64,000 bases of DNA from Rhodocollybia butyracea (lineage: Eukaryota > Basidiomycota > Agaricomycetes > Agaricales > Omphalotaceae), in contig JADNRY010000117.1 of NCBI GenBank assembly GCA_015501585.1, forward strand, positions 1 to 64,000. Direction: 5' to 3'. Each line of letters begins with the position of its first letter. The first letter of the stretch is position 1. The notes under the pieces are model-generated. The model made no database searches. It saw only the letters and a program-made list of their open reading frames with translations, and was not told the DNA's origin. Below, one piece after another: positions 1 to 41,057 of the stretch. Made by a program: the position numbers and the translations under genes.

Positions 1-176
1 ACCTTGCGGAGAGCAATACTTGGAATGACAAACATTCCCTCCTTGTAATCCACCTTGCAAAACTGTGGACGCAAAGTACAAATCTTGCTGGTTACCCCAC
101 TTGCGAACAAAGATTCTGGTAAGCATAAGGCATCTTCTGGTGACTTGGCGGAAAGGCATACAACATCACCTGGCAT
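1..176 (-). CDS. partial unknown ORF running off the left edge
   Basis: On the minus strand an ATG at 176-174 opens a frame of 58 codons without a stop that leaves the window at base 1. The peptide has a mixed, protein-like composition and begins MPGDVVCLSAK. No family was recognised. The plus-strand frame over the same bases is shorter and ends in low-complexity Phe/Leu. It is probably the start, or a 3' piece, of an element-encoded gene, given the repeats to its right. Confidence is low because it is cut by the window edge. Confidence 0.3.
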   Translation of the reverse strand, partial: MPGDVVCLSAKSPEDALCLPESLFASGVTSKICTLRPQFCKVDYKEGMFVIPSIALRK

Positions 177-354
177 GAAACACCAGCTCTGTTATGACCC
201 GGATCTAAATCCTATACACCCAATCTTTTTTCTTCTGTAACCAACTATGAACACTATCATTAATACTTCTACTTAACATTTTACATTCATTAGTTATTCA
301 ACACCATTTGGGTTAATGCTGCACACATTCTTCCAGAACACCAGAATGATCTTT

Positions 355-505
355 AACAGTCACTGCACAGTCTGCACAGTCATGACATCATTCTAGCTCC
401 ACAACTATGATGTCATCTTGCTACTCCACAATCATGATGTCATTCCACTGCTCCGCAGTTATGATATCACATCACTGCTCCACAGCTATGACATCATTGC
501 ATAGC
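355..505. promoter_or_regulatory. 27-bp phased array of ATGANRTCAT palindromes
   Basis: Five near-identical 10-bp palindromes of the form ATGACATCAT, ATGATGTCAT or ATGATATCAC lie at 382, 407, 434, 461 and 488, so spacing is 25, 27, 27 and 27 bp. Each is preceded by a CTCCACA or CTCCGCA word. These resemble CRE/ATF-type bZIP sites. Together with the TGASTCA sites and TATA box downstream, they look like the enhancer of an LTR or other element promoter (inference). Confidence 0.6.
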
Positions 506-518
506 CTCTTTACATCAA

Positions 519-653
519 TGACTCAATATCAGTCATTGCACAGCCAGATATCTGAGTCAACTACGGTTCCGCATACATGACTCAATATTAGTCATTGCAC
601 AGCATTACATAGTCAGACTGACTCATCCGCAGTATTTCCGCAGTTATGACTCA
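519..653. promoter_or_regulatory. five TGASTCA (AP-1/Gcn4-like) palindromes
   Basis: TGACTCA or TGAGTCA occurs at 519-525, 553-559, 578-584, 619-625 and 647-653. Several copies are followed by an ATATTAGTCATTGCACAG-like tail. TGASTCA is the known core of the Gcn4/AP-1 family of bZIP factors. The block lies directly upstream of a TATA box. Confidence 0.6.
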
Positions 654-699
654 AATCTAGTCATTCCGCAGCATTTCCTAACTAGTACACATTGCACAG

Positions 700-707
700 T
701 ATATAAG
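700..707 (+). promoter_or_regulatory. TATA box (TATATAAG)
   Basis: TATATAAG lies 47 bp after the last TGACTCA site and about 105 bp before the hairpin array. A transcript starting some 30 bp downstream would carry the hairpins in its leader. This is a consensus match only. Confidence 0.45.
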
Positions 708-808
708 TAGTCTAGATTTACCAATGTACGTTAGACATATTATTTTTCTTAAATCCAAACCCCCACTTGTTTGCTGTTATCACTTGTGTGAATCACCAGA
801 CCAACTCA

Positions 809-1256
809 TTGTATATTGTTGAGCTATCTCCAAGCTACAATACACATTTATACATCTTGTTGAGCTAACTCCAAGTTGTATCCACTAACATTCACCTGTT
901 GAGCTATCTCCTAGTGAATACTTCTTTAATTGCCACTTGTTGAGCTATCTCCGAGTTGCAACTTCCTATTACTTGTTGAGCTATCTCCAAGTATTAGACA
1001 TCACACTCACTATTACTTGTTGAGCTATCTCCGAGTACTAGACACCACACTCACTATTACTTGTTGAGCTATCTCCGAGTACTAGACACCACACTCACTA
1101 TTACTTGTTGAGCTATCTCCGAGTACTAGACACCACACTCACTACTACTTGTTGAGCCATCTCCGAGTACTAGTTCTGATTCATATTACTGCTTGTTGAG
1201 CTATCTCCGAGGGTAATCTTATTATTATTATTTGTCGAGCTATCTCCAAATAATAA
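809..1256 (+). repeat. array of 11 hairpins with a conserved loop and co-varying stems
   Basis: Eleven units share the core TTGAGCTATCTC (variants TTGAGCTAACTC, TTGAGCCATCTC, TCGAGCTATCTC). Units lie at 809-840, 850-881, 890-919, 930-961, 966-997, 1010-1041, 1054-1085, 1098-1129, 1142-1173, 1185-1217 and 1225-1256, repeating every 37-44 bp. The ~10-nt flanks differ between units but are complementary within each: TTGTATATTG with CAAGCTACAA, TTGCCACTTG with CGAGTTGCAA, and TTATTATTTG with CAAATAATAA (10 of 10 paired). Inside the core, GAG and CTC are invariant and could pair around a CTAT tetraloop. The central units are also near-identical tandem copies. This is a pattern of a structured RNA or DNA element, not of ordinary satellite drift. 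Confidence 0.85.
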
Positions 1257-1441
1257 CTTCTGTGAGTTTCGTATTACAAACTAGTTACTAACTTTACTTG
1301 AGCCTAGTTGTTTGAGTATATATTTTTTGCCTAGCGGTTTCAACGAACAGAAAGGCTTGCTCTATAATCTCATTAATTTTTCTTATCATTTTTACTGCTG
1401 AGTTACGTACTGTGAAGGTTTGGACGAGACTATTGATCGAG

Positions 1442-1977
1442 TCATAACAAGCTCTGGGGGAGTGGTATACCACCAAAGGAGAATGGAAGGATAGGCGCAG
1501 CCAGAGAAAAGATGCTGAACAGATTATTGGGAATTGCGGCTTCCTCTTCAGTCACCTGCTTCAATGTCCATGTGGAAAGATTGAAACCGCATTGGTAGGT
1601 TTCAAACAAAAAGTCAAACTGCTTCATCTTTGGATCGTGCAAACATGTCTGTGAATAGCAGAAAGCACACACATCAAACTCAGGAGCATCAATGCCAAAC
1701 ATTTCTGCATAAGAGCAAGCATCAGAGTGGGAAAATAATGCCAGTGCTAGAGGCAAATGTGGGGGGTAAAGGGTGTTCTTCCACTTGCAGATGCTGAATT
1801 GATCAGCACATCCAATGTTGCTGAAGGATCTGCTTTGCAAGTGTACTGGTGAGGTGGTAATACCCCCTTCCCAGCAGCCATTTCAGCACTCTGGGCCTTC
1901 AATTGCTCCCACTTCTCAACATCAGAGCAGAGCCAACACCGCTCCCAAAACAGCAAGAAAGTCATACCTCCTGCCAA
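1442..1977 (-). CDS. unknown minus-strand ORF, probably frameshifted
   Basis: Two minus-strand frames follow each other: 1977-1747 (protein-like, with KWEQLKAQSAEMAAGKG) and 1840-1442 (132 aa, with CAFCYSQTCLHDPKMKQF, a Cys/His-rich stretch). They look like one reading unit with a frame change near 1800. The family was not recognised. A plus-strand frame over 1855-2227 is also open, so strand assignment is uncertain. It sits between the hairpin array and the foldback fragment, so it is likely element debris. Confidence 0.3.
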
Positions 1978-6562: not shown

Positions 6563-6706
6563 AGCATTTACAGTAACCCCCGTGCAGTCACCCTGCAGTC
6601 ACCTGCAGTCACCCAGAACAGTCACCCAGCAGTCACCCTATGGCTAAATGCAGTCACCCCAACAGTCACCTTAAGGCCAAATGCAGTCACCCTAGCAGTC
6701 GCCCAA
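6563..6706. repeat. CAGTCACC cluster 1
   Basis: About nine CAGTCACC or close words occur in 140 bp, including CCCTGCAGTCACCTGCAGTC and two longer units containing GGCTAAATGCAGTCACCC or GGCCAAATGCAGTCACCC. It belongs to the same repeat family as the block at 7137-7400. Confidence 0.7.
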
Positions 6707-7136
6707 TTAATTATATATGTAACATGAAAAACAGCAATGTATCCTGTATCCTGTGTACTAAGTGTACCCAACTGTAGTTATTCCTAATGTCCAGCCTCTG
6801 GACAAAATATTTAATCCAGACTCTGCATACTTAGTGTTTCATCACTCTTTACACTTTTTCACCTGATCCTTTTCCTATCCATATGTTGGAGATATTGACA
6901 TCAGCCAAGCAATTGGTTTGCTTGCCGAAGTTTATCCTACCGATATTTCTCCTGTGGAGCTTATATGTTTTACCCTATGTTTTGTGATATATTTCTCCGT
7001 ATGTTTATGTTTAACTCAAGTTTAACTATGATCAATGTTTACACTGAGCATTCTAAGGTGATACTAAGTGCACACCATGATTTAGCTATTTAGTCCATTT
7101 TTCAGAAATAACAATCACCTTTGAGCCATCTACCCA

Positions 7137-7400
7137 TTTACAGTCACCCTGCAGTCACCTTTGAGGCATTTTACAGTCACCCATCAGTCACCTTTGGTAT
7201 GTTTACAGTCACCGACAGTCACCTTTGGTATGTTTACAGTCACTCAGCAGTCACCTTTGATGTATTTACAGTCACCCTGAAGTCACCTTTGGAATATTTA
7301 CAGTCACCCAGCAGTCACCCTTGAGGTATTTGCAGTCACCCAGCAGTCACTTTTGAGATATTTGCAGTCACCCTGCAATCACCTTTGAGACACCAACAGT
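7137..7400. repeat. CAGTCACC tandem array, 32-bp period
   Basis: Eight units start CAGTCAC at 7141, 7174, 7206, 7237, 7269, 7301, 7333 and 7365, so the period is 31-33 bp. The unit is approximately TTTACAGTCACC, then CNGCAGTCACC, then TTTGAGGTA. A further small cluster of GCAGTCATC/CACC lies at 7600-7650. Confidence 0.8.
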
Positions 7401-24626: not shown

Positions 24627-25320
24627 TGTAAGGTATCAAACCACTTGGCAACAATAATAATAGAAGAGACACTGCTAAAAACTATTAAAGAACCATGATT
24701 GCATGATTGCTATACTGTAATTATACTACTTGTTATTTTATTGTAGCCTCAAGTGTTGCCTGACATTCTGAATGACTCAAAATGACTCAACAGTCCGGAT
24801 CACTGGAAACATGTGGCTACTTAAATGACTTGCACTGAGTCATTGCCATACTTATTCAGGAAAGCTTACCTGTACAAACCACGGGTTGCCTTGAGGTTAA
24901 CACATGTACTTATACTTATATATTTAATTACTTAATGGTTTCCCATGTAAAAGACTATAAAAAGGGGGGGAAATACCGATACACCCTTTTTCTTTAGTCT
25001 CTATATTTTGTAACCCAGTACCTACAAGAATTACACTTGTTATCTCGATTCTTTGTGTGAACAACACCTGAGGAATTATCTACTGAGTGAATACAGCAAG
25101 ACTCACTTTAATATCAAGGATATTGAAGGTACGTATTCCCGACGCTTATTGTCACCAATACCCGTATAGTGCACACCAACTCTATACAAAGATACCCCCA
25201 AAACACCGTAACATTTAGGTTCTTGTAAGCATTATCTACCGAGCAGCCCCTGAATCTGTTAGATCGGAAGTATTAGCTAAATACGACTGGTTAACAAGCC
25301 TCTTTGTTCGAGACTTGACA
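24627..25320 (+). repeat. chromovirus 5' LTR
   Basis: Starts TGTAAGGTATC and ends GAGACTTGACA. Contains TGACTCA at 24773 and 24783, TGAGTCA at 24836, and a TATA box at 24956. Relative to the 3' LTR it has an extra GCATGATT, an extra six bases in a TACTTA stretch, and one more G in a G run. Confidence 0.9.
24956..25007 (+). promoter_or_regulatory. chromovirus TATA box and predicted RNA start
   Basis: TATAAAAAG at 24956 is followed 36 bp later by CTTTAGTCTCTATATT (24992-25007). That sequence is the exact complement of the primer site after the LTR, which places the RNA 5' end at or next to 24992 under the Tf1 self-priming model. Confidence 0.7.
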
Positions 25321-25321
25321 T

Positions 25322-25337
25322 AATATAGAGACTAAAG
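25322..25337 (+). promoter_or_regulatory. self-complementary primer-binding site
   Basis: AATATAGAGACTAAAG, one base after the LTR, is a perfect 16-nt reverse complement of CTTTAGTCTCTATATT in the LTR (24992-25007; 40729-40744 in the 3' LTR). Tf1/sushi elements are known to prime with the folded-back 5' end of their own mRNA rather than a tRNA. No tRNA 3'-end complement is seen here. Confidence 0.8.
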
Positions 25338-25350
25338 CTGTGACTAGAAA

Positions 25351-26982
25351 ATGTCTACTAGAACTGTTACTGGTGCGAGTACTACTAACGAGCGAAATAC
25401 CACAGATACCCAAGCTTCTTTTTACACTTGTACCCCTGGTTCAAATTGTCTTATGGCAAATGATAGTAATTCTATTAACAATTCTAACCAAGCACCCAGT
25501 CAACCTTCTTTTCCAGAGGGAGGAAGAACACTAGGTGCTATGCCCGGTAATGTATACCCAAATACTCCGTCACATGTTCCGAGACGTCCCGCATCTACCC
25601 CTGTGGCTCGTCCTAATAATCCAATGCAGTCTAATTGGACACCTTCACCTGTGAGACCAACAACTAACTTGGCAACTGAGGGATGGCATTATGCTAGCAC
25701 TCATGGTCCAAGATCACCGTTGGATATGGGTCCAAGTAGATTGGATAGATTGACAGAAGAGTTGGAAGGGTATGGTGAGCTACCAGAGCACAGCGGTAGC
25801 CCAAATTTATTTTATCACACATCAGCTGAACAACAGTCCGTGACTCCATTACCAAGTCGAACAGGAGACTCAGAACATTTTCCGTCTCTTAACTCAATAG
25901 TGGGACCCACTATGAGGAGGCAGGAAACTCCGGAAACTCCTTCAAACCGATTCACATGGTATCGCGATCAGTTTAGAGCTATTGTGGGCGAAAGTCCATT
26001 AAGAACACCACACCCACAAGTAACTAACAGAGAAAATATACCCCAAGTTTTAACGGTACCATCAACAGAACCTGCTACAGTAATTGGACCGTCGATTTTA
26101 ACTCAACCTGCTCCTACGCATGCAATGCAAGGGAATAGTTGGACAAATTATCAGACACCTCCACCAAATTACCATAGAAGGGCATCTGTACAGAGTAGTG
26201 ACCAAGTTGAAATTGCACGGGTTCATCGAGATCAGTTAGTTGCTTTAGGTGAAAGTTGTAGGGAATTACTTTATCGAATTGGAATATCATCACAGAATGG
26301 TGACGATTCAGTAGAAGGGTGGATCCGTAGATTTTTATTAATCACCACTGCAAATCCCAACAACTTAGACTCTGAAGTTGCATTAGCATTAGAAAGGAGG
26401 GGAATTAGGGATGAGGTTATAAGACTTACGGAATATGCTAACCGCCCTGAATTACGAGGGTTTTATGAGCTACCAGGTAGCCCAAGGACAAATTCTCATT
26501 CTAGTTCCGGGGGTAGCCGTTCACAACAGGTTCAACCTGTACTAAATCCCCCCTTATCTGAGCAACCTAGGTCAGAGTCTGTAAGTACAGGAATTGACGA
26601 GATAGTATATCCTATAATAAGGAGAAGTACTGGATCTGATTCGGTACGTACAGCAGTAAGTGAAATCTTAGGTACCTATTTCGGAAATCCGGATCGTGTA
26701 CATCAATCCGCAGAAAATCTTGAATCCGTACAATTAGCGGTAAGTGATATTCTCGAATCATACTTGGCAAACCCAGACCGCAGATTCCCGGCGCACACTG
26801 TCACTTTTTCAGATTCTTCTATGCACTCAAATGATAGGAGAACTGAGAATAGGGAATCTAGGGAAGTAGTTGTAGTGGAACCTCAGAATAGAAGAGTACT
26901 AGGGACCCAAAACACAAGTGGAATAGGAAGGGGCAGGAATGTAGCTGCTCACTTCCAACCCCATTTAATAGGGCTCCTATAG
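25351..26982 (+). CDS. chromovirus Gag N-terminal region, low complexity
   Basis: 543 codons from MSTRTVTGAST. Rich in Ser, Pro, Thr and Asn. It includes a duplicated motif, DSVRTAVSEILGTYFGNPDR and VQLAVSDILESYLANPDR. No zinc finger. It lies directly after the primer site, so it is the first element ORF. The length of sequence before the capsid domain (28.5 kb) is unusual for a chromovirus Gag. The frame ends at 26982 and related low-complexity coding continues in other frames. Confidence 0.7.
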   Translation: MSTRTVTGASTTNERNTTDTQASFYTCTPGSNCLMANDSNSINNSNQAPSQPSFPEGGRTLGAMPGNVYPNTPSHVPRRPASTPVARPNNPMQSNWTPSPVRPTTNLATEGWHYASTHGPRSPLDMGPSRLDRLTEELEGYGELPEHSGSPNLFYHTSAEQQSVTPLPSRTGDSEHFPSLNSIVGPTMRRQETPETPSNRFTWYRDQFRAIVGESPLRTPHPQVTNRENIPQVLTVPSTEPATVIGPSILTQPAPTHAMQGNSWTNYQTPPPNYHRRASVQSSDQVEIARVHRDQLVALGESCRELLYRIGISSQNGDDSVEGWIRRFLLITTANPNNLDSEVALALERRGIRDEVIRLTEYANRPELRGFYELPGSPRTNSHSSSGGSRSQQVQPVLNPPLSEQPRSESVSTGIDEIVYPIIRRSTGSDSVRTAVSEILGTYFGNPDRVHQSAENLESVQLAVSDILESYLANPDRRFPAHTVTFSDSSMHSNDRRTENRESREVVVVEPQNRRVLGTQNTSGIGRGRNVAAHFQPHLIGLL

Positions 26983-28497
26983 TAATATCTTCTGACTCCA
27001 TGACATCTCACTCCACTGGGGAACCATTTAGTTCTCACTCAAATTCCATTATTGGACCATCACAAGGGGTAAGTATGGATGTTCCAGTAGTGCTTGTACC
27101 CAGGTATCATGACCTTGAGACAAGAGAACAAGATACTCATGGTAACACTCCTTATGCTATTGTGGATCCAGTCCACGCTATGAGCAACAGGAAACCCAAC
27201 CAGCCTCAGATTTAAGTTCAGCTGGGAGAGTACAACAACTCAATGAGTGGCAGAGGCGTGATGCCGAGGCTCAATGGGCTGTTGGTGATCCCCAGAAAGA
27301 GGAATTCTAAGGCAAGGGGGACATCAATATGTTGATAGAAGTGGAATGTGGATGAATAATAGTGCTAGAAGAGGGGGAGGAAGAAATGGTGGTCATACAC
27401 CACCAGAGTCCCACCTCAAAGTGCCATAAGTACGCCTGCATCTAGTTGGCAAGGTATTGGTACAAGACCCCTTCATCAAAGTTGGGGAAATGCAAGGGAA
27501 GGAGGAGGCGGCACACCACCTCCCCCTAATGATGGATTTTCCTTGACCTCTGAATCTTCTGCTGATAGGCGTAGGGGAAGGAGTAACCATGTCCCTGTCT
27601 CAAATCAAATTCATCAAAATGAATTACAGACAGCAGGGATTGTTCCACCACCCCTCCGCCCCACCTAATGAGACTGATTATATGTCAGCTTCTAACTCTT
27701 CAGATAGAAGGGGAAGGGCCCATACTTATGGTCTCACACCACATGTCAATGTGGAAATTGATGGGAATGGTACACGAAGGTTGGTGGCCGCTGGAAATTC
27801 CCGGCAACCTGTACTGGAGCCAAGTGGAATTAATCCACCGCCCCCACACCTCGTGGGCCAGGCACTCCAGAGTATGCATCCCCAGAATTTCCGGGACAAC
27901 CCAATCCACATAACCATGGAAGTATGAGGAATATGCAGACCTCAGGAGTAACCAGCAGTAGGAACAGATCCCAATTTAATGATACAAGAGCTGTAGGTCA
28001 AGAAGGTGAGTCATGGGAAGAAGAGATAGGAACAACAGAGGTGGAATTTAATTCCACTTATGTTGGGTATGGTGGGAGAATGCCAAGAGCGCCCTAGGGG
28101 CCAACCCTTACCTCAATGCTCAAGCTGGACCTGGGCCATCAACACTACAATTTAGGAGTAGTTATCCTAACATTCCTGGAAAAGGAAAAAACATTGTGAG
28201 AAACACTCAAATGATGCAAAGTAGTGGTGATGGTGGACCTCCTGATCAACCCAATGATCCTCCAAGTGGGATCTATGGAGATTCAGGGGATGAGGGCCAG
28301 AACCAAGAGGGTCACTTACCGGACCGTAATAATTTCGAGAATGGGGAAAATCATAATGGAGGGGAAGGAGGAGGTCAATATAATGGACCTCCTGATGGAC
28401 CCCCAGGAGGACCCCAGGAGGTTATTATGGCTATGGAAGGGATGGGCGTGATGGGCGTGATGGAAGAGATGGAAGAGATGCACGAGATGCATGTGAA
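26983..28497 (+). pseudogene. chromovirus Gag middle region, repeatedly frameshifted
   Basis: Gly/Pro/Asn/Ser-rich coding texture continues (27000-27215, 27589-27927, 28196-28450) but the frame changes several times and stops occur between pieces. It connects the N-terminal Gag with the capsid domain. No domains recognised. Confidence 0.5.
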
Positions 28498-29145
28498 ATG
28501 GAAAATGAGCAAAGGCGAAGAGAGAGTGAGAGAGATAGAGAGCTCACACGTACACTCAATTATGAGTCAAAACTTGATATTGCAAAGCCGGAACAATTTT
28601 CGGGTACTAACCGTGCAAAATGGAGGCCGTTTGTGGATAAGTGCTTGACAATGTTCAAGGCAAAACCCACAATATATGCTGCTGATAAATCTAAAGTAAT
28701 GTTTGCAACTTCTTACCTTATTGATTCTACGTATACGTTTTACCAGAATTTAATGCGGCGGGAGGAGCAAGGCAACAATGTGCCAGAACTTCTATTCTGG
28801 GATCATTTTGTATTAGCCTTTAGTAAACGATTTGGTTTATATGATGAAGTATTAACGGCACAATCCAAATTGGACAAGACATACCAACGCACAAATGAAA
28901 CCTTTGGAGATTATATCATACGGTTTGAGGAGTTCAGCACTAAATGTGAATACAATGATGCTGCCATGAGATTCCGCTTAATAAAGCAGATCAGATCAGA
29001 TCTTCGCGAGAAACTGACCAACAGAAGTGGAGGTCTACCAAACACTTATGAAGAACTGACAGATCACTTGATGGCAGTGGACAATGTTAGAGAATCCTTT
29101 ACAGATATGGGTCTCTCTGTGGATCCACTTTCCAAGAAGGAATGA
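28498..29145 (+). CDS. chromovirus capsid (retrotransposon Gag domain)
   Basis: The 215-codon frame contains the Gag capsid pattern: KPEQFSGTNRAKWRPFVDKC, then FWDHFVLAFSKRFGLYD, then KLDKTYQRTNETFGDYIIRF. It then reads RFRLIKQIRSDLREKL. This protein assembles the particle around element RNA. The methionine is arbitrary, since the acidic/charged sequence before it is also coding. The frame stops at 29145 shortly before the nucleocapsid region. Confidence 0.85.
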   Translation: MENEQRRRESERDRELTRTLNYESKLDIAKPEQFSGTNRAKWRPFVDKCLTMFKAKPTIYAADKSKVMFATSYLIDSTYTFYQNLMRREEQGNNVPELLFWDHFVLAFSKRFGLYDEVLTAQSKLDKTYQRTNETFGDYIIRFEEFSTKCEYNDAAMRFRLIKQIRSDLREKLTNRSGGLPNTYEELTDHLMAVDNVRESFTDMGLSVDPLSKKE

Positions 29146-29670
29146 CCAAATGGTAAGCACTAACTCAGGTAATACCACTCATCCTACAGGTCAGGGGTCA
29201 GGATCTCGGAATGCTGGACCTAGCCCTGGGAACCGGAGCGGAAATTATCAGAGGATAATCAGGCTACCGGACGGCGTGCAATGTCAGAGGAAATAAGTAC
29301 AAGTGAGGAGATAAGTGAGGAGGTAGTAAGGGGAGTGAAAGAAGAATTGAAACCAAGGAGTGAATATCCTAGGGTTCCAACTGAAGTATGGAATCAGCGT
29401 TGGAAAGATGGTGTATGCGCACTATGTGAAAGCCCGGAACATAAAATATTTTGACCATGTCAATGATCTCCGAGGTGGAAAAAATAGAAATGGGGCTATA
29501 GGCAGAGCCGCATTCATCGACTATGACAATGATGACCAAGACCCCGAAAATCTATTTGTAGAAATTGAAGGGTTTGACCACCCAATTCATATCTCTGATC
29601 CAGTATTAAATGGGCCAGTAGGAGATGAAACTGGCGAAAATTCTGGAGGTTCGGGAAACTGAACACCGAC
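29146..29670 (+). pseudogene. chromovirus nucleocapsid region, broken
   Basis: Three frames are used in turn. CALCESPEHKIF near 29416 looks like the first half of a zinc knuckle (C-x2-C-x4-H) and is followed at once by a frame change, so the fourth ligand cannot be assigned. An acidic stretch follows (YDNDDQDPENLFVEIEG). Confidence 0.55.
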
Positions 29671-30222
29671 TTGCCAGAGCCTCGGGAGCTTACAAGTCGG
29701 AGTGATTCCAATGATCCCGAATTTTTGAGAGCCAATAGGGTGGAAAGTGTTGTAATTAATTCCCGATCCGAGGATGCTTTTATTTTACCAGTAAAAATTG
29801 AACAGATACACTCACCTTTTTATTTCGCCTTGATAGACTCAGGAGCATCAAGAGCATTCATAGATATAGCCTTAGCAAACAGCCACCCAGAAAAAATGGA
29901 ACAGTTGGGAATTCCAATCCCTCTGAAGCTGTTTGATGGGGAATATACCTCTGCAGGTAATATCACACATAAATTCAAAACTAACATTGTATTAGAGAAT
30001 GGAGAGGTACAACATGTTACCTTTTTAGTAACTAAGCTTCATCCAGACACTCCCATTGTGCTTGGGCTGCCATGGTTGCGAGAATGGAATCCTTTAATTG
30101 ACTGGAAGAACCTAAAAATATCTTTTGAAAAAGGAGTTCAACTTTCAGGAGCCAGAGTGAAGGACATACCTGAGGGTAATACCCTAAGGTACAACACCCC
30201 GGACAAAGGAAAAATTCCGTAA
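29671..30222 (+). CDS. chromovirus aspartic protease
   Basis: 183 codons. The catalytic motif is FALIDSGASRAFID (DSGA), and the second conserved strand is PIVLGLPWLREWNPLIDW, typical of Ty3/gypsy retropepsins. It matures Gag and Pol. The frame stops at 30222. The Lys/Glu-rich linker from 30223 to 30838 is open only in fragments. Confidence 0.88.
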   Translation: MPEPRELTSRSDSNDPEFLRANRVESVVINSRSEDAFILPVKIEQIHSPFYFALIDSGASRAFIDIALANSHPEKMEQLGIPIPLKLFDGEYTSAGNITHKFKTNIVLENGEVQHVTFLVTKLHPDTPIVLGLPWLREWNPLIDWKNLKISFEKGVQLSGARVKDIPEGNTLRYNTPDKGKIP

Positions 30223-30838
30223 GTATGGATCAGTTCCAACAATAGAAGAAGTGGAAGATGAAGAGATAACAAAAGAGAAAAGAAAGAAAAAATTAACACT
30301 GGAGGAACCACTTCTGTTGAGAGAAGAGGAGGTAGAGAGGTACAGACAACAAGGACAAAGACAGAAGGAAGGTACCGAAAAAATAAGCAAAAGCACAGAG
30401 AAAATCAACAAGGTACCAGTACATCCGAAACCCAACAGAAAACTCCACATAAAAAAGAACAGAAAGTAAAAGGAGAAAAAAATAAGGTACCAATAGATAC
30501 AACTCCAAAAAAGGAGGAGGCAAAAGGTAAAATAAATCCCAAAAAAGGTAAGCATCAAGGTAAGAAGGACAGGTGGGCAAATACAGAAGGAGGGAGGAAG
30601 ATTGGCCTGGTGGGAGCCACTACCTTTTGCAAAACTTGCACAATCTGGCTGTGAAACCTTCACATTGCATCTCAAACCAGATGGAACCATCTATGAAGAA
30701 GAGCTAATGTTGAAGGAGGAACAAGCAAGACAAGCAGAAGCGGAGGAGGCAAAGCCTAAGCAGGAGAGGAGGAGAAGAGATATACCCTACCTAACAGGGT
30801 AGAAGCTGGGTCAAAAGACCAAGAGTCTTTGGAGAAAT

Positions 30839-31548
30839 TTGTTCCAAAACAATATCATGAGTTTGCAAAAACATTTGCAGCAGGAGAGGCAAAAGACATT
30901 GCCACAGCATAGACCCTATGATATGCACATTGAAACAGAAAATGACCAGCTCCACCCCAGGAAATTATATAACATGTCGCAGACTGAATTACACTCACTC
31001 AAGGAATATATTGATGATATGCTGGATAAAGGATTTATTAGGGCATCAAGTTCACCAATTGGAGCTCCTGTATTGTTTGCAAAAAAGAAAGATGGGAGTT
31101 TACGGTTGTGTGTCGACTATAGGGCATTGAATAAACTCACAAAGAAAAACCGATATCCATTACCCTTGATTGGGAACCTTATTGATCAACTTGGAAAGGC
31201 AAAAATATTCACCAAGTTAGATCTCAGGGTCGGATATAACAATATACGGATAGCAGAAAACCATGAATGGAAAACTGCCTTCCGTACTCGTATGGTTCTT
31301 ATGAGTATTTAGTCATGCCGTTTGGATTAACTAATGCACCTGCAAATTTCCAATACTTCATGAACGATATATTCAGAGACATGGTGGACAACTTTGTGGT
31401 AGTTTATCTTGATGATATACTGATATTCTCAAACAATGAGAAGGACCATGAAGAACATGTAAGACAAGTACTGCAAAGATTAGAAGAGCATGACTTACAT
31501 GTCAAACCTGAAAAGTGTGATTTTCATCAGACATCAGTAGAGTACTAG
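30839..31548 (+). pseudogene. chromovirus reverse transcriptase, frameshifted
   Basis: The RT begins near 30839. Conserved blocks are [55 protein letters not shown] and [14 protein letters not shown]. After a frame change near 31285 come [16 protein letters not shown] and the catalytic YLDD (31405-31416). It then breaks again near 31546. Net one-base changes at both points disable the enzyme. Confidence 0.92.
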
Positions 31549-32658
31549 GTATGATTGTTTCACCCAAAGGGATTTCTATGGATCCAAAGAAGGTTGAAGC
31601 TATTCAAAGTTGGCCAACTCCAGAAAACATGAAAGACTTACAATCATTTTTGGGTTTGCTAATTTCTATCGGAGATTCATAGACAATTTCTCAGGAATTG
31701 TGAAGCTCTCACTAAATTACTTGGAAAGGACGTTAAATGGGAATGGTCCAATCGGTGTGCCTCAGTATTTGAGTTATTGAAGAAGGCATTCACAGAAGCA
31801 CCAATTTTACGACACTTTGATCCGGAACTACCGATCATTGTAGAGTCGGATGCTTCTGATTTTGCAGTTGCTTCAATTATATCTCAAATTGACCCGATTT
31901 TGAATGAGATCCATCCTGTAGCATTCTTTGCACGTAGTATGATTGCAGCAGAATTAAATTACGACATCTATGACAAAGAGATGTTAGCAATTGTTGAGTC
32001 TTTCAAACAATGGAGGGCATACCTAGAAGGATCCAAGTACAAGGTAGAAGTATACTCTGATCATAACAATCTACAGTGGTTCACTACCACCAAACAATTG
32101 ACGCGCCGACAATCTCGTTGGTCTGAGTTCTTATCAGGATTTGATTTCCAAATTAACTACCGGCCCGGTAGACTTGGCGTGAAACCAGATGCATTGACAC
32201 GGAGATCGGATGTATATCCCAAGAAAGGGGAAGTAGAGAAAGCAAACAGTATGAATAATAAAGTATTCATCCGACCAGAACAACTGCTGAATGCTTCCCT
32301 TGTCATGAATGAGGAGGCTGACCTGAACAAAATCCGTAGGTCCAAAAAAGACTATTTTTGGAATAAGTTTGTGGAGATTGCCAAGTCAGATGACCCCGGA
32401 GTATGGAAGTACGAAGATCAACTTCTATTAAGGAATGGTCTAGTGTATGTACCTGATGATGGGAGTCTCCGAATGGAAATTATGAAAGCCCATCATGACC
32501 ACAAACTAAGGGGACATCCTGGTATCCGTAAAACCATCAGTCAAATTCAAAGGACTTATTTCTGGCCAAGGATGGGACGTGATGTTAAAAGGTATGTGAA
32601 CAGTTGCCATGAATGTATGAGGGCCAAAAGCTCTCGGCAGCACGACTTGGATTTTTAA
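31549..32658 (+). CDS. chromovirus RT connection, RNase H and integrase zinc domain
   Basis: Bases 31549-31776 carry the RT thumb and connection in more than one frame. From 31777 an open frame of 293 codons has RNase H residues in VESDASDFAVASI, DKEMLAIVESFKQW and VYSDHNNLQWF. RWSEFLSGFDFQINYRPGR follows, then the integrase HHCC domain (HHDHKLRGHPGIRKT to CHECMRAK). The frame ends just before the integrase core. Confidence 0.9.
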
Positions 32659-33034
32659 AACACCTACCTATTGGAGAAAGACCATGGTCCTCAATATCTG
32701 TGGATCACATTGTAGAATTACCAGAATCAAATGGTTTCAATGCAATAATGGTTGTAGTCTGTAGGTTAACCAAGCAATCCATCTTTGTGCCCTGTCATAC
32801 CACAGACACAGCAGTGGATTTATCCAAGTTGTTCATTAAGTATGTATTCTCTAAACATGGACTACCAATGGATATTGTGTCAGATCGAGGAACCCTGTTT
32901 GTTTCCAAGTTCTGGAAGGCACTGTGTGAACTGTTAGATGTAAAGCAGAGCTTTTCCACAGCCTACCATCCCCAAACAGATGGTCAAACTGAAAGAACCA
33001 ACCAGACTCTGGAACAATACCTGAGGATGTTCAT
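32613..33034 (+). CDS. chromovirus integrase catalytic core, 5' part
   Basis: Core motifs are SISVDHIVELPESNGF (first Asp), MDIVSDRGTLFVSKFW (second Asp) and YHPQTDGQTERTNQTLEQY (Glu). The reading continues into LRMF at 33021-33032, where the foldback element interrupts it. It resumes at 37272-37283 with MFVNYDQDDWEEWLPLAEF. Confidence 0.92.
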
Positions 33035-36000
33035 CAGGAAAAGGCTAATAGACTCAAGCTCAACTTGAGCCAACTTGAGGCCAACTTCAGTATATTTGCC
33101 AACTTGAGGCCAACCTGAGTATATTTTGTCAACTTGAGGTTGACATGGGCCAACTTGAGTATATTTGTCAACTTGAGGTTGACCTGGGCCAACTTGAGTA
33201 GATTTGCCAACTTGAGGCTAACTGGGTCAACTTGAGTAGATTTGTTAGCTTTGAGATCAACCAGGGTCAACCTCAGTAGATTTGTCAACTTGAGGTTAAC
33301 TTGAGATTAACTGAAGTCAACTTGAGCTTAACCTGGTATAAGGCATGTACTGAGTTCAACTGTAGAGTAGTAATGCCCAAAGTTGCTATTTAAGTTGAAC
33401 TTGAATGAGGTTTAGGTTTAAAAAAGATCAATTGTGTAGACAGAGGTCAATTAGGTATCTAGACAAATTCTATACAACTGGGGGTAGTGTGGGATGGACC
33501 AGGGTAGGAAAGTGCAAAGACAGGAAGTGAATAAAGGAACATAGAGAGGCTCCCTAGAGACTGTGAATGTGCCCTACATTTAAAATGAGAGAAAACCAAG
33601 GGAGAGATGGCAAAAACATCAAAAATCACCTAAGTGAGACTGACCAGGGGGAGATGACCCAGATGGAAAGTGACCAGGAAGTGAGTAGAGGAGCATAGAG
33701 AGGTCCTAAGCGAATGTGAATGGGCCCTACTCGGAAAAATTGAATGAAAATTGAATGAGTTATGGCAAAAACATTGAAAATCACCTATATGATGAGAGAG
33801 TGATGGAAAAAGTTGGGAATTGCTCTAGCGTGAGTAAGGCGATAGTGAGGGGGTACCTAGGGGATCTAAACGAGCCATGGACAAAAGAAATGAATGGAAA
33901 CTGATGGAAATATGGCAAAAACAGCGAAAATCACCTAAGTGAGACTGACCAGGGGGAGATGACAAGATGGAAAGTGACCAGGAAGTGAGTGAGGAGCATG
34001 GAGAGGGTCCTAAGCGAATGTGAACGGGCCCTACCTCGGAAAAATTGAGTGAAAATTGAAGGAGTTATGGCAAAAACATTGAAAATCACCTATATGATGA
34101 GAGAGAGATGGAAAAAGTTGGGAATTGCTCTAGCGTGAGTAAGGCGAAGTGAGGGGGTACCTAGGGGATCTAAACGAGCCCTGGACGAAAGAAATTGAAT
34201 GAGAAACTGAGGGAAATATGGCAAAACAGCGAAAATCACCTAAGTGAGACTGACCAGGGGGAGATGACCAAGATGAAAGGTGATCAGAAGTGAGTGGAGG
34301 AGCATGGAGAGGGTCCTAAGCGAATGTGAACGGGCCTACCTCGGAAAAATTGAGTGAGAATTGAAGGAGTTATGGCAAAAACATTGAAAATCACCTATAT
34401 GACGAGAGAGAGATGGAAAAAGTTGGGAATTGCTCTAGCGTGAGTACAGCGACAGTGAGGGGGTACCTAGGGGATCTAAACGAGCCCTGGACGAAAGAAA
34501 TTGAATGAGAACTGAGGGAAATATGGCAAAAACAGCGAAAATCACCTAAGTGAGACTGACCAGGGGGAGATGACCAAGATGAAAGGTGATCAAGAAGTGA
34601 GTAGAGGAGCATGGAGAGGGTCCTAAGCGAATGTGAACGGGCCCTACCTCGGAAAAATTGAGTGAAAATTGAAGAAGTTATGGCAAAAACATTGAAAATC
34701 ACCTATATGATGAGAGAGAGATGGAAAAAGTTGGGAATTGCTCTAGCGTGAGTAAGGCGATAGTGAGGGGTACCTAGGGGATCTAAACGAGCTCTGGACG
34801 AAAGAAATCGAATGGAAACTGATGGAAATATGGCAAAAACAGCGAAAATCACTTAAGTGAGAATGAACTGAGGAGTGCTGAACAACATGGGGAACTGATT
34901 CATATGAGATCAAAGCAGCATAGAGAATGTCTTTAGGCAATGTGAGTGAGCCCTACTTTGAAGAAATTGCATGAAAAACTGCAGGAGATATAATAAGAAG
35001 ACAAAAAAAAATGCCTAAGTCTGATGGTCATGTGTTAACTTATGACAAATCATTCAACTTGCATGTTCTCGCTCCTCCACCATCGTCTCTGGGATTCCCT
35101 GCTGTGTTGCCAACAAATCCATCCACCATTAGTCTTTCTTTATTACCCATTTGTTTTGTTTATTTTCTCACTGTAAAAACTGTCTTTCTCGAGAGGCCGA
35201 GCTTGGACATGGTTAAGATAGCACAGTTACAGGCAGCTGCCACCTTTCTCGAGGTTCTTTGGAACTGGTCATGATAGAGTGTTGCATTTTTACTCCTTCT
35301 TACTGTTCCTCTCTGCCTCTTTAATCTTATCTCAGCAACTCCCCATACTGTCTGTTCCACTTAGGTGAGTTTTGGTGTTCTTGTCATATCTCCTTCAGTT
35401 TTCACTCAATTTCTTCGATGTAGAGCTCGTTTAGATCCCCTAGGGACCCTCTCCCCACCGCTTCAATATTGTTTGAAATAGCTCCCCATCGTGGTTACTG
35501 TCCCCAGGTCAGTCTCACTTAGGTGATTTTCGCTGTTTTTGCCATAATTCCATCAGTTCTTATTCAATTTCTTTCGTCCAGGGCTCGTTTAGATCCCCTA
35601 GGTACCCCCTCACTGTCGCCTGTACTCACGCTAGAGCAATTCCCAACTTTTTCCATCTCTCTCTCGTCATATAGGTGATTTTCAATGTTTTTGCCATAAC
35701 TCCTTCAATTCTCACTCAATTTTTCCGAGGTAGGGCCCGTTCACATTCGCTTAGGACCCTCTCCATGCTCCTTCACTCACTTCTTGGTCACTTTCCATCT
35801 TGTTCATCTCCCCCTGGTCAGTCTCACTTAGGTGATTTTCGCTGTATTTGCCATATTTGCATCAGTTTCCATTCGATTTCTTTTGTCCAGGGCTCGTTTA
35901 GATCCCCTAGGTACCCCCTCACTATCGCCTTACTCACGCTAGAGCAATTCCCAACTTTTTCCATCACTCTCTCATCATATAGGTGATTTTCAATGTTTTT

Positions 36001-37274
36001 GCCATAACTCTTCAATTCTCACTCAATTTTTCCGAGGTAGGGCCCGTTCACATTCGCTTAGGACCCTCTCCATGCTCCTTCACTCACTTCCTGGTCACTT
36101 TCCATCTTGTTCATCTCCCCCTGGTCAGTCTCACTTAGGTGATTTTCGCTGTATTTGCCATATTTCCATCAGTTTCCATTCGATTTCTTTCGTCCAGGGC
36201 TCGTTTAGATCCCCTAGGTACCCCCTCACTGTCGCTGTACTCACGCTAGAGCAATTCCCAACTTTTTCCATCTCTCTCTCATCATATAGGTGATTTTCAA
36301 TGTTTTTGCCATAACTCCTTCAATTTTCACTCAATTTTTCCGAGGTAGGGCCCGTTCACATTCGCTTAGGACCCTCTCTATGCTCCTCTACTCACTTCTT
36401 GATCACCTTTCATCTTGGTCATCTCCCCCTGGTCAGTCTCACTTAGGTGATTTTCGCTGTTTTTGCCATATTTCCCTCAGTTCTCATTCAATTCCTTTCG
36501 TCCAGGGCTCGTTTAGATCCCCTAGGTACCCCCTCACTGTCGCTGTACTCACGCTAGAGCAATTCCCAACTTTTTCCATCTCTCTCTCGTCATATAGGTG
36601 ATTTTCAATGTTTTTGCCATAACTCCTTCAATTTTCACTCAATTTTTCCGAGGTAGGGCCCATTCACATTCACTTAGGACCCTCTCCATGCTCTCCACTC
36701 ACTTCTTGGTCACTTTCCATCTTGGTCATCTCACCCTGGTCAGTCTCATTTAGGTGGTTTTTCCTGTTTTTTGCCATATTCCCCTCAGTTTTCATTCCAT
36801 TTCTTTGTTATAGGGCTCGTTTAGATTCCCTAGGTACCCCCTTACTATTGCTGTACTCACACTAAACTTTGCTATTATCTTATGTTATTATCATTTATTT
36901 TGTACTTTGTTTGTATACAAATTACATCATTTGAACACTTAGTTGTTGTGACTTGAATGTTCTTGAAGTAATATGTTGCCTACTCACAGGTGGCTTGAGA
37001 TTGACTTGGGACTACTCTAGCTGAGTTCAGGCTGACTTGAGACTGACTTGAGTTGCCTTGAAGTTGCTCAAGTTACCCAAGTTGGCTTGAAGTTGGCTTG
37101 AAGCTGGTTTGAAGTTGGTTTGAAGTTGGCTTCAGTGGATTGAAATAGATCAACCTTGCATTGAGTGCTGTATGGCCCCCAATGACCATTGGGGGCCATA
37201 CAGCCCTCAGGCTGGCTGAAGGGTCATCCAGGTTGGCTCAACTCTCCTTGAGTAAAGGGGGTATTTTCCTGATG
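33032..37274. mobile_element. 4.24-kb foldback (giant palindrome) element
   Basis: It interrupts integrase. Ends are CATCAGGAAAA and TTTTCCTGATG, flanked by TT on both sides (alternatively a 6-bp GATGTT duplication). Subterminal zones are tandem CTTGAG/CAACTTGAGG repeats (33050-33360; about 36960-37250). Then come two long inverted arms (about 33600-34990 and 35400-36870), each a tandem array of a ~307-bp unit: CCTAGGGGATCTAAACGAGC at about 33853, 34159, 34464 and 34772, and its complement at about 35589, 35896, 36205, 36512 and 36818. Each unit is two ~154-bp half-units. The centre (34990-35400) is unique and encodes nothing clear. It is non-autonomous. Confidence 0.85.
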
Positions 37275-38051
37275 TTTGTAAACTATGATCAAGATGATTG
37301 GGAGGAGTGGTTACCTCTAGCAGAGTTTGTGTATAACAATAGCCCAAGTGATGCCACTGGTATATCACCATTCTTTGCAAATAAGGGGTTCCATCCTCGT
37401 CTAACCATTTCTTTAAAAAATGTACCAAACCATGCTGCTCACCTAAAGGCAAAGGATATGAATAGCATCAACGAATATTTAAAAAGAGAAATTACACGAT
37501 CCAATGAGCAGTATGCTAAATACTCAAACCGAAAAAGAAGGGGGATACCGGAGGAGAAATTTCAAGTAGGTATGGAGGTGTGGCTGAACTTAAAAAATGT
37601 AGAAACCAAGAGGCCAGCGAAAAAATTAGACCACAAGAGATTTGGTCCATTTAAAATCTCTGAGAGGGTCTCGTCACATGCATATAGGCTAGAGTTACCT
37701 CCAACAATGCAAGGAATACATGATGTATTCCACATTGACTTACTCACTCCACATCCAAAGGAATATTATGCAAGTAGAAACCCACCTCCGCCTCCTCCAA
37801 TCGAAGTAGATGGCCTTGATGAAAATTACGAGGTGGAATGTATTCTCAACAGTAGAAGAAGGTATGGGAAATTGAAGTACTTGGTGAAATGGAAAGGGTA
37901 TGGACCCGAACATAACACCTGGGAACCGATTGTGAACATGGTAAATTCACAGGAAGCAGTTGAAGAGTTCCATAACCGAAACCCAAACAAACCAACACTT
38001 AGGGATGGAGAATGGGAGCAGGAGTCCCAACACAAGCCTTGGGAAGGCTAG
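37272..38051 (+). CDS. chromovirus integrase C-terminus and chromodomain
   Basis: The frame resumes with NYDQDDWEEWLPLAEF. Next are the GPY/F region (AKKLDHKRFGPFKI, SHAYRLELP) and HDVFHIDLL. A chromodomain spans about 37827-37985 (YEVECILNSRRRYGKLKYLV, then WKGYGPEHNTWEP). Chromodomains guide chromovirus integrases to modified histone tails, usually heterochromatin. The aromatic residues expected to cage methyl-lysine appear retained. Stop at 38049-38051. Confidence 0.93.
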   Translation: MFVNYDQDDWEEWLPLAEFVYNNSPSDATGISPFFANKGFHPRLTISLKNVPNHAAHLKAKDMNSINEYLKREITRSNEQYAKYSNRKRRGIPEEKFQVGMEVWLNLKNVETKRPAKKLDHKRFGPFKISERVSSHAYRLELPPTMQGIHDVFHIDLLTPHPKEYYASRNPPPPPPIEVDGLDENYEVECILNSRRRYGKLKYLVKWKGYGPEHNTWEPIVNMVNSQEAVEEFHNRNPNKPTLRDGEWEQESQHKPWEG

Positions 38052-38256
38052 AGATATGAAAGGGGAGAACAACATATATTGACACTGTTTCGCAGAAACA
38101 TACAAAAATAATTACACAAAAAATCAAAACAAGGTTGGTGGGACTACTAGATCGATCAGTAGACCCTTATGAGCAAAAGCCTAGCAGTGCAATATCAGAA
38201 AAATAGCATAAAAAGAAAGAAAAAACGAAAAGACACACATTAAAAAATACATAAGC

Positions 38257-39583
38257 TCATCCTTGAGCTCTATCATTACCCTGTCCATCTACTACTGGCG
38301 CGGTAAGTGCTATATACATACTTCCAGGGGCAACAGCCTTAAAACAACTCCCTGCTCGCTCCCATGGTCCGTATTTAATCTCATAATGGGACACCGCCGA
38401 AGCTTGGTCCACAATTGTGCAAAGTGTTGGCAGATGGTCATGAATAACATCCCCTCGAAGTTGGAATGCATCATGAATGATGTCAACAATCTTTCCCAAT
38501 TCAGTATGCAACCAGAAACGAAGGCGGCCCCCAGGGCTATTAGCATCACCTACTAAGGTCGACGCTACTTCTCTCTGGATAGCATAGATGCTCTTCCCAA
38601 CCGAGTGGACAAACGGCCCCAGAATCACTGCGGTGTTGAACAATAACCGCTTTAGCAAAGTCCTCACGAGAAAATCGAACCTTAGTGGGAGGAATTGGGG
38701 GAGGACCCAGGGCAACGAGATTAGCACCAGTAGCAGGAGTATTCAACCTCCCCTTAGAGTCTGTGAAGTAACTATGAGCAAACTAGAATTCAAGAACAAG
38801 AGTAGGAGTATAAGTACCTAATTCATCGATTTTTCCTGACCTGTAAAGACGAGGATCCGCAGTAGGATAGACACCAGGCCGGAAACGGGAAGTGCGAGCA
38901 TCAGCTAGCCGTTCCTTACGATTTGGGAGACGTTTATTGCGAGACACCTGTGGAACGGGCGCAGAAAGGAGTAGAGTCATGTGCCTATGGGAAACGGTCC
39001 TAATTTAACGCATACAAGCACTCAAAAAATCGAATTACTTACTGCTTCATCTTCTCACACTCCCTAAGGGCCTGATCTCGCTCAGCAGTTACTTGTGCAA
39101 GTTGGCTAAAAGTCGTTAGACTAATACAGTGGAGAACAATTGAATCACATACTCTATGAGAATAGCATTAGTCACTTGTGACTCCTGGTACTCTTTCTCT
39201 GTCTCGTCTCCATTGATCTCTTGCAGGAGGATGTGCCTAGACCTACATTAAGTGGGGAAATAGCTGGATTAGCAAAAGACTTACGCGTTCAACGCCGCTT
39301 CTTTCTCGGCGAGCTCGTTTCGCTGACCCGTCAATGACTTGACCTCCTGAGCCAGTTGAACAGTCTGGACAGTTTGAGCCAAGGCTGCAGTACAGAATTC
39401 TCCAATGTTCCTGCAAAAAATAATGTTAGCTTAGTTGATGACAGATTAAGACAATACTTACGTCGCAAGTTGAAGGAATTCTGCTCGGATTTGATGAGAC
39501 ATCTCAGGAAAGTCCATCTCGGAAGGGACTCCATAGTCGTTCAGAACGCTGGGCATGTCCGCATCAGATGGGCGAGAAGACAT
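38257..39583 (-). CDS. spliced antisense gene inside the chromovirus, unknown function
   Basis: Start ATG at 39583. Exon 1 is 39583-39462 (MSSRPSDADMPSVLNDYG). Exon 2 is 39410-39285 (ends LTGQRNELAEKEAALNA). A third exon follows (RHILLQEINGDETEKEYQES), then QLAQVTAERDQALRECEKMK. After another intron come QVSRNKRLPNRKERLADA and LGPPPIPPTKVRFSREDF, and last a segment to 38257 including GPFVHSVGKSIYAIQREV. Introns are GT-AG, about 50 bp. A one-base frame change near 38640 separates the last two segments. The middle is heptad-like. A TATA sequence GTATAAAAGG lies at about 39816-39826. It lies between pol and the 3' LTR, where some gypsy elements carry extra or antisense ORFs. Function and origin unknown. 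Confidence 0.6.
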
Positions 39584-39883
39584 ATCTTCTTCCTTTTTTG
39601 ATGACTTGCTCTGGCATAAGATTCCTTGCAGGTCCAGTCGACGTGAAGTTATCGAGGCCAGGGACAGACATAGATTCCTCAAACTCCGAAGTAGAAGGGG
39701 CAAGAACGCCAGCAGCAAGATGAGTGTGACGATTGTACACAAAATGCATGAGTAAAGAGATAAGAGAAAAAGTGGCTGGAGAAGAGCGTTAAAAAATCGG
39801 GCGATGCCCCAGAGTCCTTTTATACGATGGATCCTAATTAAATCGACCATATTATCGATGCTGACGAGCTTATGGTGCAATCG

Positions 39884-40378
39884 CAGCTCGCTTGGGAGAA
39901 ATATATGCTTAATCCTCCCAGCAGACCCAATGACCGTACTACTAACAATATATTCAAGTACACCGAGTTTTCAAGCGAAAATCGATAGGCAAAGTGTATA
40001 GAATATTGACAGGATCATGGGGGAAGCAGCCGTTGATAAAGATCTAGTGAATGCATATGAAGAAACGAGGTGCGGGAGCAGAACAGACATGCTGAAGCCA
40101 AGAATTTGTCGATTCAGGGTACACTAGATATGCGACAGACCTCAAATGGAATGAGATAAGTCTGCTAACTCTAGAGCGAGAGTTGTGACACATTTACACA
40201 GTGCTACGCGACCGCCCCGCACCCCTAGGGCACCCTAGAAAACGACAAGACATGGAGCGGCGCTGGAAACAGGAAATTGGCGCCAAATCATTTGTTGATG
40301 GCCGGACTTTGAAAATCAAATTGAGCGAGAGAATCGAACCATGGACTTCGAGGGCTCAGTCTTTAGAAGGGGAGCTTC
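39884..40378. other. 3' non-coding region of the chromovirus
   Basis: No supported ORF. It ends in a purine-rich AGAAGGGGAG (about 40365-40374) next to the 3' LTR, which would serve as polypurine tract. Confidence 0.5.
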
Positions 40379-41057
40379 TGTAAGGTATCAAACCACTTGG
40401 CAACAATAATAATAGAAGAGACACTGCTAAAAACTATTAAAGAACCATGATTGCTATACTGTAATTATACTACTTGTTATTTTATTGTAGCCTCAAGTGT
40501 TGCCTGACATTCTGAATGACTCAAAATGACTCAACAGTCCGGATCACTGGAAACATGTGGCTACTTAAATGACTTGCACTGAGTCATTGCCATACTTATT
40601 CAGGAAAGCTTACCTGTACAAACCACGGGTTGCCTTGAGGTTAACACATGTACTTATATATTTAATTACTTAATGGTTTCCCATGTAAAAGACTATAAAA
40701 AGGGGGGAAATACCGATACACCCTTTTTCTTTAGTCTCTATATTTTGTAACCCAGTACCTACAAGAATTACACTTGTTATCTCGATTCTTTGTGTGAACA
40801 ACACCTGAGGAATTATCTACTGAGTGAATACAGCAAGACTCACTTTAATATCAAGGATATTGAAGGTACGTATTCCCGACGCTTATTGTCACCAATACCC
40901 GTATAGTGCACACCAACTCTATACAAAGATACCCCCAAAACACCGTAACATTTAGGTTCTTGTAAGCATTATCTACCAAGCAGCCCCCGAATCTGTTAGA
41001 TCGGAAGTATTAGCTAAATACGACTGGTTAACAAGCCTCTTTGTTCGAGACTTGACA
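40379..41057 (+). repeat. chromovirus 3' LTR
   Basis: 679 bp, TGTAAGG to CTTGACA, nearly identical to 24627-25320 apart from three indels and two substitutions near its end. It abuts the truncated KDZ transposase. Confidence 0.9.

Follow-up and report, generated by a model that had tools for sequence, protein, structure and literature searches.

A Tf1-like, probably self-primed Ty3/gypsy family of Rhodocollybia butyracea carries an array of covarying hairpins in its putative leader RNA, a possible binding site for Gag

Near the start of a 64,000-nucleotide stretch of the Rhodocollybia butyracea genome (assembly GCA_015501585.1, contig JADNRY010000117.1, positions 1 to 64,000, forward strand; hereafter the window) lie eleven tandem hairpins that share a nearly fixed core. 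To what do these hairpins belong, and what might read them? An earlier reading, made from the letters of the window without database searches (the sequence-only reading), had proposed selection for structure, either as a packaging, translation or protein-binding array in a leader RNA or as a hairpin-DNA recombination substrate. To our knowledge, RNA selection by Ty3/gypsy elements is poorly known. We followed the array through the genome, searched as 95.6 Mb in 1,381 contigs.

The eleven units with their nearly fixed core were confirmed (Table 1). The core TTGAGCTATCTC, starting at 819, 860, 899, 940, 976, 1020, 1064, 1108, 1152, 1196 and 1235, is exact in eight units and carries one change in the other three (TTGAGCTAACTC, TTGAGCCATCTC and TCGAGCTATCTC). 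At up to two mismatches the window holds 24 core matches against 6.0 expected, a number reached in 0 of 100 shuffles, and genome-wide the exact core occurs 1,949 times, its reversed control 6 times. Five of the eleven units (976-1152) are near-duplicates on a 44-nt period, so that only about 7-9 units are independent. We assembled 109 arrays of 2-13 units each, a set in which locus ends clip some arrays, the two LTRs of an element count separately and haplotype pairs of one place are possible; the usual order was u1-u2-u3-u4-u5-(u6)n-u9-u10-u11, with n = 0 to 5. Among their 1,006 units, found by demanding a core within four changes and hence biased to conserved units, nine of the twelve core positions (1, 3-6, 8 and 10-12) held one letter in at least 98.9% of cases, and the variable ones were 2 (T/C), 7 (T/C) and 9 (T/A). 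GAG and CTC, described earlier as invariant, are so in the window and nearly so in these 1,006 units.

Table 1. Features of the array-bearing LTR in the window
Feature	Position	Strand	Basis or remark
Left target-site duplication copy AGCTC	185..189	.	5 bp; from sequence
Solo LTR, start TGTTATGAC, end GTCATAACA	190..1449	+	sequence; paired LTRs in L039, L050, L055-L058
U3, 27-bp repeats at 375-498, TGACTCA/TGACATCA-like sites	190..731	+	sequence
TATA box TATATAAG	700..707	+	sequence
ATG-free leader (R-U5)	732..1448	+	0 ATG, ~10 expected from dinucleotides
Putative RNA 5' end and self-primer AGACATATTATT	733..744	+	11/12 complementary to L039 PBS
Array of 11 hairpins, order u1-u2-u3-u4-u5-u6-u6-u6-u9-u10-u11	807..1258	+	
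Hairpin u1	809..840	+	
Hairpin u2, core TTGAGCTAACTC	850..881	+	
Hairpin u3	889..920	+	
Hairpin u4	930..961	+	
Hairpins u5, u6 x3, u9 on 44-nt period	966..1173	+	u6 number is the mostly variable part among copies
Hairpin u10, stem bulged	1186..1217	+	
Hairpin u11, core TCGAGCTATCTC, stem 10 bp	1225..1256	+	
Right target-site duplication copy AGCTC	1450..1454	.	from sequence

We then compared the arms of the units. The sequence-only reading had them pairing at 7-10 of 10 positions; they are complementary, but the range for ungapped 10-nt arms is 6-10, with unit 10 scoring 6 because of the bulge in its stem. In a gapless alignment of nine unit types, 88.9% of cells were paired, compared with 77.7 ± 2.0% in shuffles and 33-50% (at most 49.6%) in slid-alignment controls. 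Fourteen cells had changed on both sides (4.5 in shuffles), and the covariation score of 0.344 (0.147 in shuffles) was equalled by 0 of 500 shuffles, these values being based on nine paralogous units of which u5, u6 and u9 are close to one another. Real units thus exceed shuffled ones in covariation, as had been anticipated. The nine distinct units paired their own arms at 8.4 of 10 positions, versus 6.8 for swapped arms (permutation P ~1e-4; P = 9e-4 when restricted to seven dissimilar units), and own arms also beat swapped arms by folding energy (P = 3e-5, eight unit types). Arms that mutate without compensation would have spoken against selected structure: change is compensated between unit types, whereas within a unit type compensatory change is scarce and variation among copies mostly one-sided. 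Copies of one type are too alike for strong covariation. Arm transitions within unit types kept a wobble pair in 17 cases and broke the pair in 7 (P 0.06), and those present in at least two copies kept it in 8 and broke it in 1 (P 0.04), the events in both counts being non-independent; five transversions broke arm pairs, one of them (in u1) in 36 copies.

GAG and CTC had been suggested to close a CTAT tetraloop. For most units RNAfold prefers an alternative GA:UC loop register over GAG:CUC. However, an A at core position 9 would disrupt the alternative's A4-U9 pair, and all 106 u2 copies as well as six u9 copies have an A there, which favours the GAG:CUC register. The pattern of core variation agrees with a UY bulge, a GAG:CUC stem on top of it and a CYAW tetraloop closed by that stem. 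The near-identical 44-nt units are able to pair mutually. We discarded kissing-loop dimerisation via AGCU, since the sequence is AGCC in u9 and in many copies of u10. Rfam covariance models gave no match in window positions 150-1600 at E values up to 1. Folding of the whole array yielded a z-score of -3.1 on the sense strand (1 of 100 shuffles as good) versus -1.3 on the antisense strand (13 of 100). In absolute folding energy the antisense strand is more stable than the sense strand, and the summed unit hairpins come to -70.5 kcal/mol (sense) versus -66.9 kcal/mol (antisense); the strand asymmetry is clear in z-scores and modest unit by unit. In unit stems, G.U cells number five versus two A.C cells.

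The array lies within an LTR. Family A, as we call its multicopy, recently active Ty3/gypsy family, resembles Tf1 and shows TG...CA paired LTRs and short target-site duplications, as expected of an LTR retrotransposon. Neither a PBS nor an internal region follows position 1449, so the window copy is a solo LTR. The sequence-only reading had placed a bZIP-site promoter block and a TATA box before the array; the TATA box is indeed upstream, but the reading missed that the promoter is the U3 of an LTR and the whole block an LTR. We take the TGACTCA/TGACATCA-like sites of this U3 to be bZIP sites. In the six full elements (L039, L050 and L055-L058) the paired LTRs differ at 0-3 places, and four (L039, L055, L056 and L057; not L050 and L058) have matching 5-bp flanks. 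LTR searches of the genome used positions 190-1448 as query, one base shorter than the LTR, and a first look returned 377 candidates, 40 of which were scored. Of 27 examined LTRs whose two flanks both lie beyond any element, 26 carried matching 5-bp direct repeats; L017 did not. Copy counts may be inflated by haplotype pairs such as L016 and L023, LTR copies on separate contigs with almost identical flanks, like two haplotypes of one locus.

Next to the array we found the parts of a predicted self-priming leader. The TATA box lies 33 nt before the putative RNA start, and the RNA probably starts near 733, which would place the array in the leader before gag. L039 has its own primer, AGACGTATTATT, which pairs at 12/12 positions with AATAATACGTCT, directly 3' of the 5' LTR, and the same PBS occurs in the other full copies. 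The LTR-end-plus-PBS pattern has 71 matches in the genome at up to two mismatches (54 exact; reversed control 0), of which 13 are a separate internal site. This sequence, GTCATAAAATAATAATACATC, resembles the LTR end plus PBS and has 13 exact places; in the capsid-less subfamily it precedes the 3' LTR by ~0.6 kb, as at L056 4562 (one base different) and L059 7510. The array thus sits between the self-primer and the PBS site, a placement that the sequence-only reading had missed. The primer-PBS layout is that of self-primed Tf1-group elements (PMC4600332). A predicted 5' RNA end complementary to the PBS, the hallmark of the Tf1/sushi group, was found in L039 (12/12), in a related element on contig C1149 (12/12) and in a chromovirus of the window (16/16). 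The primer-PBS duplex of L039 has a pair probability of ~0.16, and forcing it costs ~2 kcal/mol.

The same leader is depleted of ATG. The last ATG upstream of it is at 724. The 107 leaders that we collected, including overlapping loci and LTR pairs, reduce to 87 distinct ones, of which 72 have no ATG; the mean per distinct leader is 0.22, versus 2.1-16.4 for the five other A/T/G triplets, and the ATG mean in 28 distinct U3 stretches is 13.6. Because its units are repeats, the array portion adds no independent support; ATG is nevertheless also missing from the remaining 265 nt of the window leader, where the other triplets occur 1-7 times. No ATG precedes that of gag in the leaders of L039 (702 nt) and C1149 (555 nt). 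In L050, L055 and L056 an ATG stands four bases before the gag ATG (ATGAATG), 3' of the LTR, and opens a 7-codon frame; it is absent in L039 and L057.

What do the full copies encode? L057 has a Gag ORF of 1138 aa with a Retrotrans_gag domain and a CCHC knuckle. The ORFs of L050 and L055 (749 aa) and L056 (733 aa) are Gag relatives; that of L056 has no Pfam match and shows a CCHC motif by eye. Such ORFs align with the Gag query in its C-terminal part alone and thus lack the capsid portion. The capsid-less gag ORF stays open in several copies, with frames of 746-749 aa. RT matches adjoin family gags at six loci (C481, C1012, C1185, C591, C611 and, interrupted by 12 stops, C1223), family A pol being known from search matches only, and the array of C481 (L114), the sole RT locus whose array was read, gave nine matches of model R1. 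Family A therefore has pol-bearing, gag-only and capsid-less members, and the array is common to gag-only, capsid-less and (in the one read) pol-bearing copies. Gag relatives in public proteins come mainly from Dendrothele bispora (8/9), in keeping with an agaric host. Family A has two gag lineages at dS ~0.5, while their leader segments differ by 0-3.3% in seven aligned LTRs, gaps uncounted; dN/dS between them is ~0.5 at that dS, which is not decisive. L039 is a mosaic joined near the RNA start: in positions 385-1636 its U3 is 31% different from other copies and its leader with the array 0-3.3% (gaps uncounted). Strand transfer between two RNAs would produce such a switch, suggesting that different family members are packaged together. 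An internal deletion was seen in L048 (1216-1515), where the PBS region runs directly into u10-u11 and another LTR end.

Through a Gag relative at 45% identity we reached a second lineage, lineage B, on C1149 (L139 and L140), with a gag ORF of 1314 aa and long ORFs in which RT, integrase and chromodomain motifs were seen by eye. Used as query, its RT region matched family A RTs at 75-77% in five loci; at C1223, which is decayed, the figure was 57%. The 555-nt leader starts with AGACTTCTTATT, 12/12 complementary to its own PBS, and contains seven hairpins built as stem-TG-AGY...UUC-CA-stem, except that UAC replaces UUC in the first. The loop motif GAGY...YUCC is similar to that of family A and stands at the same leader place. 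These hairpins also covary (87.5% paired versus 77.0% shuffled; covariation score matched by 0 of 500 shuffles), and the leader folds at z -3.75 on the sense and -1.80 on the antisense strand, absolute energy being lower on the antisense strand. The pattern ACTGAGYNN{0,3}TTCCAGT had 82 genome matches versus 8 in the control, 80 of the 82 within 100 bases of another; a looser pattern, TGAGYNN{0,3}TTCCA, was dropped as largely background (3,092 versus 1,747 for its reversed control). L141, a related copy outside the training of model R2, gave four sense-strand R2 matches of 19-38 bits; it has one leader ATG, and one of its loops, GAGCUAUUCC, is close to family A GAGCUAUCUCC. Models R1 and R2 gave no convincing cross-match on each other's lineages, and even with E values as high as 10 allowed, R1 misses the C1149 hairpins. 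The case for homology between the arrays therefore rests on their shared place and one short motif. On these grounds a common origin of the two arrays is likely.

Other elements are predicted to prime themselves without such an array. The window chromovirus (24627-41057; LTRs 24627-25320 and 40379-41057) is Tf1-like and encodes gag, protease, RT, RNase H, integrase, SH3_Tf2-1 and a chromodomain (Chromo E 4.2e-17; in lineage B a chromodomain is apparent by eye in an L139 ORF). Its 16/16 primer and PBS, ~330 nt apart, bound an ATG-free leader with no such array. L142 (C506), a close relative, has the same 16/16 primer-PBS pair and an ATG-free leader, again with no array; the best sense match of model R2 there was 8.4 bits (E 3.1). 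The array is therefore unnecessary for self-priming in general, and predicted self-priming and ATG-free leaders are more widespread than the array. In a further lineage, C463 (L143), we saw no array, and around the gag start no primer-PBS pair of at least 10 bases was conspicuous.

The structure and place of the array are well supported; the RNA start and the ligand we infer. Between-unit covariation, the asymmetry of fold z-scores, the spacing of the TATA box from the putative 5' end, the ATG-free leader and the array of a related lineage argue for selection for structure in a leader RNA. Within the earlier proposal of a packaging, translation or protein-binding array, the leader and structure part holds and the choice of function is a judgement, in which we favour packaging. 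Stems that drift while the loop stays fixed, repeated over many copies, point to a ligand recognising the loop. Gag is the only long ORF of gag-only members and has a CCHC knuckle, and the capsid-less ORF retains the C-terminal knuckle region. With the L039 mosaic, these features lead us to favour, tentatively and a little short of even confidence, an array in the R-U5 leader of a Tf1-like self-primed Ty3/gypsy element that serves as a multivalent binding site for Gag and marks the RNA for packaging. Each unit would form, in RNA, a lower stem of variable sequence and, above a UY bulge of two bases, a near-invariant GAG:CUC upper stem with a CYAW tetraloop, and about ten such hairpins together would make the multivalent site. 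The putative ligand is the CCHC nucleocapsid part of the element's own Gag, and the array would mark the genomic RNA for particle packaging, where its 5' end would prime reverse transcription. The compact hairpins may also draw the self-primer toward the PBS and may leave a leader that ribosomes can scan.

Alternatively, the hairpins might compact the ~390-720 nt between self-primer and PBS, or be recognised by RT/RNase H at primer cutting. Lineages A and B do both have the array between primer and PBS, and Lin and Levin reportedly found in 1997 and 1998 that Tf1 needs structure around its primer; but mere compaction needs no fixed loop, the window chromovirus and L142 hold a 16/16 primer-PBS pair over ~330 nt without an array, and the forced duplex of L039 comes at an energy cost, so that we consider such a scaffold rather unlikely. 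Of the same low likelihood is a role in which the hairpins recruit a host protein (for export, stability or translation) or time scanning to the gag start. The long ATG-free leaders of L039 and C1149 agree with it, but a long hairpin run is expected to slow scanning, and ATG depletion does not need the array, since the leaders of the window chromovirus and L142 show it with no array present. Acting in DNA, the palindromic units could be protein-binding or cruciform sites (an enhancer, a silencing site or a recombination substrate). They are imperfect palindromes inside a promoter-bearing LTR, the u6 number differs among copies and antisense hairpins are almost as stable as sense ones. Yet fold z-scores and wobble pairs lean toward sense RNA, the array is 3' of the TATA box and within the ATG-free leader, and the arms vary while staying paired, which a plain DNA site would not require; we judge this improbable, and for the recombination substrate named by the sequence-only reading no support was found. 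Slightly less probable still is a functionless tandem repeat spread by slippage from an ancestral hairpin that left its palindromes, for although the 44-nt units expand and contract and the copies are young, the units covary between types, the core is fixed on diverged arms, most of the 109 arrays keep the same unit order and a related lineage has a second covarying array.

We compared the Gag-binding array with known systems. Like Tf1/sushi self-primed elements (chromoviruses), family A combines a predicted 5' RNA end complementary to a PBS after the 5' LTR with Gag and RT, and the window relative has a Tf2-1-like SH3 and a chromodomain; unlike them, the ~390-720-nt primer-PBS leader contains 4-13 same-loop hairpins, and some members of family A code only for Gag or lack its capsid part. 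The packaging signals (psi) of retroviruses are stem-loops in the 5' leader before gag. Going by the letters and the putative RNA start, the array has that place in the genomic RNA leader, but here some ten near-identical loops stand in tandem and Gag binding is putative. TR-GAG elements are plant LTR elements coding only Gag, as L057 (1138 aa) does; here the elements are fungal, the leader array is common with pol-bearing relatives and a capsid-less version is also present. MS2-type coat-protein hairpins have a short upper stem above a bulge and a tetraloop with partly fixed letters; the units resemble that design, with another sequence, a natural tandem array and a putative ligand. For several chromoviruses, PMC3601003 mentions priming by a 5' hairpin as well as stem-loops within long R regions, and PMC2864245 reports no evidence of self-priming for the Tcn1-like SM-Tcn1. 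Among the matches listed in the open-licence literature, whose titles and abstract starts were available, no such hairpin array is described. Viral contigs (IMG/VR) had 19 stretches with one 16-base match each and no array, taken as chance.

If Gag binds the array, it would be a natural multivalent RNA handle. Hairpin number may even act as a dial in packaging competition between pol-bearing elements and gag-only or capsid-less parasites that keep the same array, an idea that we consider less likely than not. The recognition unit is seemingly written about ten times, with drifting stems and a fixed loop, which makes the putative RNA-protein contact directly testable, and because hairpin number varies naturally on a near-constant leader, the way in which non-autonomous elements exploit autonomous ones can be tested too. 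The window holds other tandem repeats: those at 6583-7390, built on CAGTCACC, are unrelated to the hairpin array, and the integrase of the window chromovirus is split by an insert (~33069-37132) with 305/308-bp tandem arrays, at 33599-34866 and 35502-36864, whose units look like mutual reverse complements.
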